In this document: piece by piece, positions 29,218-36,457 of the stretch
How the letters are laid out: the number at the start of each line of letters is the position of its first letter
Position numbering within the stretch: position 1 is the stretch's first letter
DNA from: Methanosarcina acetivorans C2A
GTDB lineage: Archaea > Halobacteriota > Methanosarcinia > Methanosarcinales > Methanosarcinaceae
DNA: 64,000 nucleotides
Reading direction: 5' to 3'
Assembly: GCF_000007345.1 (NCBI RefSeq)
Contig: NC_003552.1
Span: 4,960,001-5,024,000 of the forward strand
Notes under the pieces: model-generated
Seen by the model: only the letters and a program-made list of their open reading frames with translations
Told to the model about the DNA's origin: nothing
Databases searched by the model: none
Made by a program: the position numbers and the translations under genes

Positions 29218-29547
29218 ATGAGAATCTGGGACATCTCTCCTGAAAATATGTGCAGGCAGCACCTTCTCGGAGAACACCGCGAATTGCACGCCCTGTGGTC
29301 CATAATTACCAATGACAAGAAAGCTTATGCCCACCATCCAGAAACACTGCGTTGGAAAGGAAAGTTAAAGGCCCTCTACCTGAGGCATGAGGCTCTTGTG
29401 GAAGAAATGGGAAGAAGAGGATATAATCACCATACTCCTCTTGACCCTGCCCTTGCTACAGGAAAAGCCGTGCAGGATGAATTTGTTGATTCCTATGAAA
29501 AACAGGTCCGGATCCTCAAAGAAAGAGGGTGCGAATGCCGGGTTTGA
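29218..29547 (+). CDS. pyrimidine dimer DNA glycosylase (T4 endonuclease V-like)
   Basis: 109 residues matching the Pyr_excise family. QHLLGEHRELHAL aligns with QHLMAEYRELPRV of phage T4 endonuclease V, placing the catalytic Glu at Glu22 (T4 Glu23), with His15 and Arg21 conserved. It would cut the glycosyl bond at UV dimers and nick the strand. In T4 the nucleophile is the amino group of Thr2 after Met removal; here the aligned residue is Met1 and residue 2 is Arg, which should block Met removal. It is divergently placed from the membrane gene. Confidence 0.85.
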   Translation: MRIWDISPENMCRQHLLGEHRELHALWSIITNDKKAYAHHPETLRWKGKLKALYLRHEALVEEMGRRGYNHHTPLDPALATGKAVQDEFVDSYEKQVRILKERGCECRV

Positions 29548-29859
29548 ACGTAAGCTTCAGAAAACAAACAAGCCATCTATATAAAACCCGTAAATTTTGG
29601 ACTTCTTCGAGGGACATCTCAACTTTATTTGGGACTTTTTTAATATTTATCAAACAGCGGATTTTTCGAGATATAATATATATAATTATCGATATCTTTT
29701 AATATAATTAGAGTAGAAATATAGAGAGACAAAACGGATCTAATTAGAAAAGCTGTTAATGAGCTATGGAAGAAGAGTAAAAGAGTGGAAAAGTAAGGCA
29801 TCAAAACGGTGTATATTCAAAATATTACTCTGGACCGGATAAGAATCTAAGGGACTTCA
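29548..29859. promoter_or_regulatory. intergenic region upstream of the HTH/Zn-ribbon gene
   Basis: 312 bp, AT-rich. GAGATATAATATATATAATT (about 29669-29690) is a TATA-like tract. No ORF or repeat is supported. The start of the following gene at 29860 lacks an evident strong ribosome binding site. Confidence 0.35.
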
Positions 29860-30417
29860 ATGTCAATGACTCTTGTGTTGGATGAAGAAGAATTATGGAT
29901 TCTTGAATGCAGAAAAGAAGCCCATATAGACGAGAGATTTCATATTCGAGACGTTATAAAGAAAGTAAAAGCCGAATATGGGACCTCAAGGTCAACAGTT
30001 TACGAAATTGTGGGTTATTTGGAATTCCATGGCCATATAAAGATGAATAAAGCCGGGAACAGAGAAATTGACGAGTCAGTAGCTTATTTTGTAACATGTC
30101 TGGGGTGCGGAAAGGAAATACCGGGAAGCGAATACGTCAAAGAGAACGGAAAAACGGTATGTGAGGACTGTTACCTGGAAGGACACCAGAAAATAAAGTT
30201 TGCAGACCCTGTGGCAGTGCGTTCTAAAAAACTCTTCAGAAAACAGCACGGGTTTGAAGGGACCGACGGCCTGACCGAACTGCAAAAAGAGATCTATGGC
30301 TTTATCCTGGAGAAAGGAGGAGCAACCCCCGAAAAGATCTCGAAGCTTTTCAAGCTCACTCTGCAGGAGACCAGGAACCAGCTTGCAATACTGCGGCACT
30401 GCGAACTTTTGAAGTAG
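29860..30417 (+). CDS. HTH - zinc ribbon - HTH regulatory protein
   Basis: 185 residues: a winged helix-turn-helix (about 15-75, TSRSTVYEIVGYLEFHGHI), a four-cysteine zinc ribbon (CLGCG and CEDCY), and a C-terminal helical domain resembling a second HTH (GLTELQKEIYGFILEKGG, KISKLFKLTLQETRNQLAIL). The ribbon and C-terminal part are repeated in the gene at 30882-31259. The design suggests a DNA-binding regulator. It heads a cluster of three genes with an AhpD-like protein between the two paralogues. Confidence 0.7.
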   Translation: MSMTLVLDEEELWILECRKEAHIDERFHIRDVIKKVKAEYGTSRSTVYEIVGYLEFHGHIKMNKAGNREIDESVAYFVTCLGCGKEIPGSEYVKENGKTVCEDCYLEGHQKIKFADPVAVRSKKLFRKQHGFEGTDGLTELQKEIYGFILEKGGATPEKISKLFKLTLQETRNQLAILRHCELLK

Positions 30418-30536
30418 AGAAAAATGAGAGAAGAAATGTATATGGTGCCTTTTGACTCGTATATGGTGCCTTTTGACTCTTAAATTTAAGATAGAGTTTA
30501 GATATGTACTCTGAAGCATTCTGAGGTGAGAGGTTG

Positions 30537-30863
30537 ATGGATATTACCGAGATGAACGAAAGGATGAAAGAAATGGCCGGGGAACTCCCGGGTGTGATGA
30601 AAACTATGATGGGGCTTCATTCCGAAGTCGTCAAAGACGGAGCTTTAAGTGCCCGGACAAAAGAGCTGATGATGGTAGGGATTGCAGTTGCCCTGCGCTG
30701 TGAGCCCTGCCTCTGGAAGCATGTTCCCGAAGCCGTAAACCTTGGAGCGACCCGGGAAGAGATTCTGGAGGCTGTCAGCACTGCAATAGTGATGGGGGGA
30801 GGGCCTTCAGTAGCTTACGGATCACTGGTTGTCCTCAAAATTCTGGATGAAATGGATATTTAA
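30537..30863 (+). CDS. carboxymuconolactone decarboxylase/AhpD-like protein
   Basis: 108 residues from the ATG at 30537, preceded by GAGGTGAGAGG; the TTG at 30534 is not needed. The CMD fold is recognised by LSARTKELMMVGIAVALRCE and the redox pair Cys55-x2-Cys58 (CEPCLWKH) followed by His62, as in AhpD-type proteins that take part in thiol-based peroxide defence or related reductions. It lies between two paralogous Zn-ribbon regulators, which suggests that they sense the same stress. Confidence 0.85.
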   Translation: MDITEMNERMKEMAGELPGVMKTMMGLHSEVVKDGALSARTKELMMVGIAVALRCEPCLWKHVPEAVNLGATREEILEAVSTAIVMGGGPSVAYGSLVVLKILDEMDI

Positions 30864-30881
30864 ACTTCAGAGTGATAAAAG

Positions 30882-31259
30882 ATTACGGAAGAAAAAACCG
30901 AGTGTTCGGTCTGCGGATGTAAACTGGAAGGAGAAGACATTTACGAAGAAAATGGCAAGGTCCTTTGTGAGGACTGTTATATAGAGAGCCGCCATAAAAT
31001 CCAGGCATGTGACCCCTGGGCTGTCCGTTCGAAAAAGATTTTCAGGGAAGAAGCCGGACTTGAGGGGACTGAAGGCCTGACTGAACTGCAAAAAGCCATT
31101 TATGAATTCATCGTCTCCAGGGGAGGAGTAAAAAAGGAAGAAATTGCCAAAAAATTCGAGATATCCTCCCGCGAAGCCGAAAACCAGTTTGCTCTCCTGA
31201 GACATTGTGAGCTGGTAAAAGGCCAAAAAAGAGACGATGGCGTATCTTGTACCATTTGA
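30882..31259 (+). CDS. zinc ribbon - HTH protein with probable ATT start
   Basis: An open frame of 125 codons homologous to the C-terminal two thirds of the protein at 29860: CSVCG...CEDCY, then AVRSKKIFREEAGLEGTEGL and ELQKAIYEFIVSRGG, then ENQFALLRHCELVK. The frame is closed upstream by TAA at 30876, and no ATG, GTG or TTG precedes the zinc ribbon. ATT at 30882 stands 5 bases after AGTGAT, a ribosome-binding-site-like sequence, and reads ATT ACG GAA GAA. The N-terminal HTH of the paralogue is absent. Either ATT is the start, or a former ATG was mutated and the gene is newly silent. Confidence 0.6.
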   Translation: MTEEKTECSVCGCKLEGEDIYEENGKVLCEDCYIESRHKIQACDPWAVRSKKIFREEAGLEGTEGLTELQKAIYEFIVSRGGVKKEEIAKKFEISSREAENQFALLRHCELVKGQKRDDGVSCTI

Positions 31260-31486
31260 AGCCTGATAGATTAAAAAACGTGAATTCTTCTTTTTTTCTT
31301 TCCGGATGAGTAGAAGCTTCCACGGACTTTCCCGAAGCGAAGCTCAAGACCTGCTCACGGCTGTATGCCTGCCCAAAACTGTTTCATAATTGAAGCCCAA
31401 ATTCATATTTGAAACCAGAAATAGCAGGGATTTATACAGTATATAACTTTTTGTATGGTTAAGGGTTGCAGCCGGGGTGTTTTAAA

Positions 31487-34382: not shown

Positions 34383-36134
34383 TCACATTCCTTTCAGTGT
34401 ATCGGGACTCGTTGAAAGGACCTCTCTCCACCGGAGGCCGAGCCCGGAAAGAGCAATTCCACCTCCAAGCAATGTTACCGAGTTCTTTATTATGTGGTCA
34501 AGCACAGCGACCGTAAACCCGAGTTCCGGTCTAATCCCTCCAAGCCCGAAAACTGCGGTAAGGGCTACCTCATACGTCCCTATAGCCCCGGGAGTAACAG
34601 GAAAAGTTTTTGCAATATTTCCGAGGGCTACTGCCAGAAAGATAAGGGAGATCGTGAATCCTGAAGACATATCTACCCCGGCTGTCGGAAAGGCTTTCAG
34701 GACCAGATAGCAGGTAAAGATATCCATTCCCCATATAAAAAGGGAAGAAGCAACCACTGCAAGAAAGGCACCGGGACGGACGGCAACAATGCTCATCTGA
34801 TGGATGAAAGCGGATATAAACTCTTTTATTTTATGGAGAGGTTCGCCAGAAGAAATTGCAGAAACCTTTTTCCCTCCTCTCTTTGCTATGCGACCTTCCC
34901 TGAAAGACAAGGAAAAGAGACCCACAAAGAAAATGAGGATGGCAAACCCTGAAAATCTGATAAGGGACTCCATCCAGGCGGCAAGTTCAAATCTGGAAGC
35001 TACCCCTGAAGAGGCAAGTGCGGCAATAGAGGTAATTGCAATTATGTCAAAGACCCTTTCTACGGTCAGAGAGGAAAGACTCGTCGTAAAGGCAAGGTCC
35101 TTACTCTTTTTCAGGATATACATCCTGCTCAGGTCTCCTATTCGGGCAGGAAGGATCACATTTGCAGACTGACTGATGAAAATGCTTCCCGTAAGAAAGC
35201 CAAGCCCGTAGTGGTTTCCAAGCCTGTTAAGGATCTGCTGGAAACGAATCCCCCGGAGAGGCCAGGAAATGCAATAAACAAGGGAAGCAAGAACCAGGGT
35301 GCTCAGAGACACCTGCTTTATATTATCCAGAACATCGGAAGCCCCGAGAAAGGTTGCAACAAGGGCGAGGATCAGAAGGGCAAGAGAAGCTGCCAAAAAA
35401 AGCTTTCCTTTCCCAGAAAAAAGCCCCGGAAAAAAGAGTTCCCACCAGAGGCGGAAAACCTCAGACCCCATTCCAAGAATATCCTTTACGAAATTGACCT
35501 TGCTTGACCCACCGTGTCTCCAGTAGACGGGGAACTCCAGAACCCTGTATCCCCGGTACTGAGCCCTGACCAGGAGTTCGGTGTCCCAGAACCAGTGCTG
35601 GTTATCGATTTCGTCGAGCAGTTCAAAGAGGGCGTCTCTTCTGAAAGCCTTAAATCCGCACTGGTGGTCATAGAGTTTTGAGTGCAAAAAAAGCCGCACG
35701 AGGGAGTTGTACCCTCTGCTAGCAAACTCCCGCTTGAAAGGTCTTTTTGCATCACTTTCGGGCATTATCCTCGAACCGGTGGCAAAGTCATAGCCTTCCG
35801 TACTTACAGCTCGGATCAGTTTTTCCAGATAGCTCATATCTGTTGCAAGATCCACATCAATGTAACAGAGTACCTCTCCTGAGGCAGCCTTAAAAGCCCT
35901 GTTCAGGGCTCTTCCCCTGCCCTGCCGTTCATCGGAATGAAGGTGTTTGACATAAGAGTACTGTTCCGAAAGCCGGGAAGCTATCCGGTCCGTACCGTCC
36001 GTGCTCCCATCCTCTGCTATGATGATCTCAAAAGAGTCGGTTATCTTTGAAAGAGTCTCTGCTGTTATCGAGACCGTATTTTCTATTCTGGCGGCTTCAT
36101 TGTAAGCGGGTAGAACTACTGAGACGCTGGTTAT
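34383..36134 (-). CDS. AglD-like glycosyltransferase fused to flippase-like membrane domain, probable ATA start
   Basis: 583 residues. The N-terminal GT2 domain (1-230) has SVVLPAYNEAARI, IIIAEDGSTDGT, ERQGRGRALNRAF, and the DVD of CYIDVDLATD; the C-terminal UPF0104/LPG synthase-like domain has about eight helices (SWPLRGIRFQQIL, FPVTPGAIGTYE). This is the layout of Haloferax AglD, a dolichol-phosphate sugar transferase for N-glycosylation. No ATG, GTG or TTG lies in frame before the GT2 strand: TAA precedes by 17 codons. ATA at 36134 follows GAGG by 8 bases and gives ITSVSVVLPAYNE. GTG at 35855 would delete the nucleotide-binding half. Confidence 0.75.
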   Translation of the reverse strand: MTSVSVVLPAYNEAARIENTVSITAETLSKITDSFEIIIAEDGSTDGTDRIASRLSEQYSYVKHLHSDERQGRGRALNRAFKAASGEVLCYIDVDLATDMSYLEKLIRAVSTEGYDFATGSRIMPESDAKRPFKREFASRGYNSLVRLFLHSKLYDHQCGFKAFRRDALFELLDEIDNQHWFWDTELLVRAQYRGYRVLEFPVYWRHGGSSKVNFVKDILGMGSEVFRLWWELFFPGLFSGKGKLFLAASLALLILALVATFLGASDVLDNIKQVSLSTLVLASLVYCISWPLRGIRFQQILNRLGNHYGLGFLTGSIFISQSANVILPARIGDLSRMYILKKSKDLAFTTSLSSLTVERVFDIIAITSIAALASSGVASRFELAAWMESLIRFSGFAILIFFVGLFSLSFREGRIAKRGGKKVSAISSGEPLHKIKEFISAFIHQMSIVAVRPGAFLAVVASSLFIWGMDIFTCYLVLKAFPTAGVDMSSGFTISLIFLAVALGNIAKTFPVTPGAIGTYEVALTAVFGLGGIRPELGFTVAVLDHIIKNSVTLLGGGIALSGLGLRWREVLSTSPDTLKGM

Positions 36135-36457
36135 ACGAACAACCTCTGAGTGTTTGTGATAATAATCGGGCTTTTATGTTGACTTCGATTTTACATCAAA
36201 TTCCATATACTCGAATAAATCCCGTATTTGTAATGAATTTGCAAAATCCGTTTTGAAGCGTATTTATGAAAAGTATTTATGAAACAATGTTTAGATAATT
36301 AAATAAATTAGATAATGGACCTAAACCGTGATTATTTTCCTTAGCCAGTTTTCTCTGAAAACAGATAATTATAATATCCTTTTTACGTACATTTCTTGAA
36401 TTTACCCTTTACGTACATTTCTTGAATTTACCTTTTACGTACCTTCTTTTTTGAATT
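36135..36457. other. intergenic gap with 26-bp tandem repeats
   Basis: 323 bp. 36381-36462 holds three to four copies of a unit like TTTTACGTACATTTCTTGAA plus TTTACC (36381-36406, 36407-36432, a degenerate copy from 36433 that runs over the stop codon of the DUF2298 gene at 36458). The part nearer 36135 is AT-rich and would hold the glycosyltransferase promoter. Confidence 0.6.

Follow-up and report, generated by a model that had tools for sequence, protein, structure and literature searches.

The window analysed is a stretch of 64,000 nucleotides of the Methanosarcina acetivorans C2A chromosome (G000:C1:4960001-5024000; G000, the genome itself, is a single contig of 5,751,492 bp). It contains a three-gene cluster formed by a small gene at 30882, its longer paralogue and an AhpD-like gene (Table 1). 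The small frame reads TAA (30876-30878), AAG, ATT (30882-30884), ACG GAA GAA AAA and so on to TGA (31257-31259). An earlier note on this DNA had reported that the frame, with TAA at 30876 and ATT at 30882, lacks an ATG, GTG or TTG start, and direct reading showed that none of these occurs in any of the 125 codons. In seven genes of the window the three codons together account for 4.8% of all codons, so that 125 codons without any of them would be met with a p of about 0.002 per gene. The ATT at 30882 is real as a fact of sequence.

The encoded protein has the layout of a LIM-type zinc ribbon followed by a helix and then a winged helix (model pLDDT 84). The Pfam LIM match lies just above the cut-off, and the CxxC...CxxC ligands (C8, C11, C29 and C32) are invariant or nearly so. 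Profile and fold searches matched LIM domains and regulators of the ArsR/MarR type (such as ZitR, AdcR and HlyU), in every case only weakly. The Pfam match, the weak profile matches and the predicted fold liken the protein to both LIM zinc ribbons and ArsR/MarR-like winged-helix proteins, and structure comparison found no solved structure that combines the LIM ribbon with the winged helix. We conclude that the protein is probably a DNA-binding regulator. Its homologues include orthologues throughout the Methanosarcinales and proteins of many bacteria, and the homology to the protein at 29860 claimed in the earlier note holds at about 53% identity.

Table 1. Features at the 30882 locus, at the glycosyltransferase locus and at two loci outside the window (window positions unless a chromosome position is given)
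Feature	Position	Strand	Remarks
Block duplicated elsewhere in the chromosome	29237..31289		88% DNA identity; partner L061:5915-7954 = G000:C1:3587914-3589953
Sister HTH, zinc-ribbon and winged-helix gene	29866..30417	+	TGG to TAG at 30415-30417
AhpD/carboxymuconolactone decarboxylase-like gene	30534..30863	+	Between the two regulators; TTG start common to the duplicate
Shine-Dalgarno (SD) AGAGTGAT	30869..30876	+	Weaker than the duplicate's GGAGGGAT and than those of all orthologues
In-frame TAA	30876..30878	+	Two codons before ATT; same TAA in the duplicate
LIM-type zinc-ribbon/winged-helix CDS	30882..31259	+	Putative ATT start; 125 codons; TGA stop
ATT at start-codon position	30882..30884	+	From orthologue comparison; ATT in own-genome duplicate too
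2-bp deletion relative to duplicate and orthologues	about 31242..31246	+	VYLVPFE tail becomes VSCTI
GT2/flippase-domain glycosyltransferase	34383..36134	-	Putative ATA start; 583 codons
ATA at glycosyltransferase start	36132..36134	-	ATA/ATT in Methanosarcina, mostly ATG/GTG in sister clades
Shine-Dalgarno AGAGGTT ahead of ATA	36141..36147	-	
In-frame TAA before ATA	36174..36176	-	13 codons between, no canonical start among them
SAM-dependent methyltransferase-like gene	G000:C1:4929111-4929869 (L249)	+	Putative ATC start; outside the window
Probable ablB	G000:C1:4882137-4883097 (L216)	-	ACG/GCG behind GGAGG

The codon aligned with the ATT was ATG in 9 and TTG in 10 of the 19 distinct Methanosarcina orthologues (19/19), and the spacing of the SD ahead of the start was conserved among them. 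The leader and start read AGAGTGATAAAAG followed by ATT ACG GAA GAA AAA ACC in the window, and GGAGTGATAAAAG followed by ATG GTC GAA GAA AAA ACC at L067. A canonical codon at the exact position behind the same SD in all orthologues points to a substituted start and not to a frameshift; no upstream ATG cut off by a frameshift was found, and the earlier note's view of the ATT as the true start position is borne out. A one-base deletion converting AAAATGATT to AAAAGATT was likewise rejected, because the orthologues, with AAAAG directly before ATG, indicate a substitution. By these comparisons the ATT at 30882 very probably functions as a start codon.

The gene is part of a block of ∼2.05 kb that is present twice in the chromosome and comprises the three-gene cluster together with a fragment of the upstream glycosylase gene. 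In the duplicate the start reads GGAGGGATAAAAG followed by ATT ACA GAA; the in-frame TAA two codons ahead is present here too, and neither copy in the genome has ATG, GTG or TTG near the N-terminus. A sequencing error as the source of the ATT was rejected, since the same codon stands at two separate loci. Relatives show the same neighbours as the window, including the downstream AMP-binding gene, and this synteny marks the window as the ancestral location. At the other locus, the duplicated block starts inside a truncated pyrimidine-dimer glycosylase gene (L061:5608-5954, G000:C1:3.5876-3.5880 Mb) adjoining a transposase-like frame, which suggests that the block duplication was transposon-linked.

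Both copies carry a 3-codon deletion relative to the orthologues, so that the ATT is most simply older than the duplication. Alternatively, one copy could have acquired the ATT from its partner by gene conversion, and the ATT would then be younger. The duplicate looks intact apart from its start codon, keeps the wing tail and has an SD (-11.6 kcal/mol) as strong as those of the orthologues.

The AhpD-like gene ends just 18 nt before the ATT, and coupling to it could help initiation. Translation might accordingly begin elsewhere, by reinitiation or frameshifting from that gene or at a near-cognate AAG or ACG codon. In the window, however, TAA, TGA and TAA lie in frame ahead of the ATT, and in the duplicate the AhpD-like gene is in a different frame; on these two grounds frameshifting or readthrough from it was rejected. 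The ACG of the window is ACA in the duplicate, whereas the ATT occupies the orthologous start position in both copies. We regard a start at any of these other sites as very improbable.

Selection was examined by comparing the two copies and by fitting a branch codon model to nine sequences. Between the copies the ATT gene showed a dN of 0.025 and a dS of 0.133 (ratio 0.19), and the ratios of two neighbouring genes with canonical starts were the same (0.20 and 0.18). After the duplication the joint omega was 0.24, which differed from 1 (p=0.007) and did not differ from the background of 0.155 (p=0.40). For the single copies the tests against 1 were underpowered (window p=0.30, duplicate p=0.17), and the point estimate of 0.07 for the window branch is accordingly not distinguishable from 1. 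As judged from these substitution patterns, the pair is under purifying selection since the duplication, and the relaxed selection for which the earlier note proposed a dN/dS test is not seen on the pair. The missing canonical start in both copies could also mean that both are dead or non-coding and that the open frame is a relic. Such a reading is hard to reconcile with the rejection of neutral evolution for the pair, with frames that contain no internal stop and a dN/dS ratio that matches that of the neighbouring genes, and with intact zinc-ligand cysteines and HTH; we consider it improbable.

The window copy itself is not free of damage, as the earlier note had supposed it to be apart from its start. 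Near the 3′-end the 2-bp deletion changes GTATATCTT to GTATCTT, and the conserved wing tail (GVYLVPF), intact in the duplicate, is frameshifted. According to the family's AlphaFold2 model (pLDDT 84), the altered tail corresponds to the last wing strand. The description of the gene as an intact zinc-ribbon/HTH gene therefore stands for the cysteine ligands and the winged HTH and fails for the wing tail. The SD of the window copy (-5.6 kcal/mol) is the weakest of 21, the others ranging from -8.5 to -12.5. The predicted products of the copies differ in a peptide, LEGEDIYEENGK in the window copy vs. LEKEDIYEENGK in the duplicate.

The sister gene is also affected, for its TAG at 30415-30417 cuts off the conserved WRKMGEEMYMVPFDS tail. 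At this position tryptophan was found in 14 of 17 homologous stretches, other sense codons in 3 and stops in 0, with some genomes counted twice among the 17. The frame stays open past the TAG to a TAA at 30481-30483, and a 21-bp tandem duplication in the conserved tail leaves the frame unchanged. Methanosarcina can read TAG as pyrrolysine, so the tail of the sister protein might still be made; pyrrolysine readthrough and truncation are both possible.

The 2-bp deletion, the weakest SD and the TAG of the sister gene, all limited to the window copy, raise the possibility that this copy is decaying and that function rests mainly on the duplicate. The sequence of events would then be loss of the start, followed by the 3′ frameshift, the weaker SD and the sister TAG, with function moved to the copy at 3.589 Mb; a window-branch omega that is not distinguishable from 1 agrees with this. 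Yet the intact-looking duplicate shares the ATT, which is thus in itself no sign of gene death. Apart from the damage listed, the window frame stays open, contains few replacements and has a low omega point estimate, and the sister frame runs on past a TAG readable as pyrrolysine. We hold decay of the window copy to be possible, with the chances leaning against it; it concerns that copy only and is compatible with the explanation we prefer for the pair.

These data suggest that the 30882 gene is probably a real gene whose ATG was replaced by ATT before the block was duplicated, and that it encodes a small, probably DNA-binding regulator initiated at AUU, in keeping with a habit of the lineage. 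The proposed course is that (i) in the M. acetivorans lineage a single substitution would have turned the ancestral ATG into ATT before the ∼2-kb block was duplicated; (ii) initiator Met-tRNA, positioned by the SD, would begin at the AUU, probably at lowered efficiency, giving the N-terminus Met-Thr-Glu-Glu-Lys; (iii) after removal of Met the N-terminal peptide would be TEEKTECSVCGCK from either copy; and (iv) the gene would be one instance of a wider use of AUA, AUU and AUC starts behind a good SD.

A second gene in the same window bears on point (iv). It encodes a glycosyltransferase with a GT2 domain and an LPG_synthase_TM/flippase domain. In the program-made list of open reading frames its start is set 93 codons too late, at an internal GTG; with this first canonical codon as the start, 93 residues and with them about half of the GT2 catalytic domain would be lost. 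Read from the ATA, the predicted N-terminus is Met-Thr-Ser-Val-Ser. The codon at the start position was ATA or ATT in 29 of the 29 Methanosarcina genomes with a readable site, and in 26 of these a canonical codon is absent back to the in-frame stop (nearest stop four codons upstream). Among six Methanosarcina paralogues, four have ATT, one has TTT and one has an ATG three codons upstream.

The pattern extends beyond the genus. The codon at the start position is ATA in both sequences of genus g12 (2/2) and GTG in the single g4 sequence. In family f2 it is ATT in 11/11, for example AGGAGAATCAGCT followed by ATT, and in family f5 ATA in 9/11, for example TAG GGA GGT ATT CAT followed by ATA. For families f3 and f4, 6/7 sequences show ATG or GTG there, which identifies the ATA/ATT position as the start. 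ATG, one step away, stands there just once outside f3 and f4 (L206), and ATC was never found at the start in the sequences read, although it makes up 33% of the isoleucine codons in window genes. By this comparison across families, the glycosyltransferase is a stronger case for a near-cognate start than the 30882 gene, and its weak start may be maintained by selection.

The frequency of such starts was estimated from frames conserved between 664 kb of G000 and 600 kb of G009, with an excess of third-position changes required. An unfiltered first survey was swamped by antisense shadow frames, most of which the third-position filter removed. About 4 of 139 conserved genes, a set that still includes a few antisense shadows, were convincing genes without a canonical start: the 30882 gene, the glycosyltransferase, a methyltransferase and ablB. 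The orthologues of the methyltransferase in Methanosarcina have ATA in seven cases and ATG in one, and its paralogues have ATG; the SDs ahead of the start are GGAGGAGTATTT and similar, and some orthologues contain an upstream in-frame canonical codon. The fourth gene is probably ablB, named here by its place after a lysine aminomutase-like frame and by the make-up of the operon. It has ACG or GCG where ATG stands in the barkeri-like clade. It possibly behaves like the other near-cognate-start genes, and the case is less clear because GCG is not a near-cognate start.

A different kind of frame was seen at G000:C1:5041424-5042498 (+). This proteasome-activating-nucleotidase-like frame is 97% identical to its counterpart in G009, and its N-terminal part is swapped for unrelated AT-rich sequence with 54 codons lacking a canonical start.

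Judged from the conserved frames, a few per cent of the genes of the Methanosarcinales appear to start at AUA, AUU or AUC preceded by a good SD. The earlier note had likened the ATT gene to infC and its self-control, a parallel that found no backing. The protein showed no similarity to initiation factors in the libraries searched and has a zinc-ribbon/winged-helix fold. The rare start is not conserved in the regulator, whose orthologues have ATG or TTG, but only in the glycosyltransferase. Nearby, the remaining genes with AUA, AUU or AUC at the start, those for the glycosyltransferase and the methyltransferase, do not specify initiation factors either. A simpler reading than self-control is that these archaea tolerate AUA, AUU and AUC starts behind a good SD.

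Near-cognate starts are known from other systems. The infC gene (IF3) starts with ATT in Escherichia coli and ATC in Streptomyces (PMC5472188). The likeness lies in the AUU/AUC codon; the infC product judges start codons and so creates feedback, whereas the archaeal products are a regulator, a glycosyltransferase and a methyltransferase. The sigR gene of Streptomyces starts with GTC (PMC5472188); it too is regulatory and has a rare start codon misplaced by annotation, but the codon and the domain of life differ, and the sigR start was tested experimentally whereas the archaeal starts are deduced from sequence. For a tubulin gene of an Asgard archaeon (Kariarchaeaceae), alignment and the spacing of the RBS led to the inference of an ATT start (PMC13394414). 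It resembles our cases as an archaeal ATT start deduced from sequence; there, however, one gene in one genome is concerned, and here there is conservation across families (glycosyltransferase) and a matched pair of copies (30882). Ribo-seq of M. mazei reported unannotated small ORFs with ATG, TTG, GTG and CTG starts, ATT not being mentioned (PMC11456600), and aIF1 of Sulfolobus disfavours non-canonical starts (cited in PMC6237735). The literature searched yielded no papers on these loci or on conserved AUA/AUU starts in Methanosarcinales.

A broader proposal, to which we give nearly, though not quite, even chances, has two parts: the Methanosarcinales would regularly use AUA, AUU and AUC as start codons for a few per cent of their genes, and in at least one gene, the glycosyltransferase, the persistence of a weak start and the avoidance of AUG in several families of the order would reflect selection on the weak start itself, which aIF1 might read as a translational setting. 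Gene finders as a rule take only ATG, GTG and TTG, so genes with AUH starts are missed or shortened. Individual genes that carry ATG, ATA or ATT in different sister species offer a natural test of the effect of a weak start. If initiation at AUA, AUU and AUC is routine in this well-studied archaeal order, gene annotations would need revision, as would proteomics databases and the models of how archaea select their starts.
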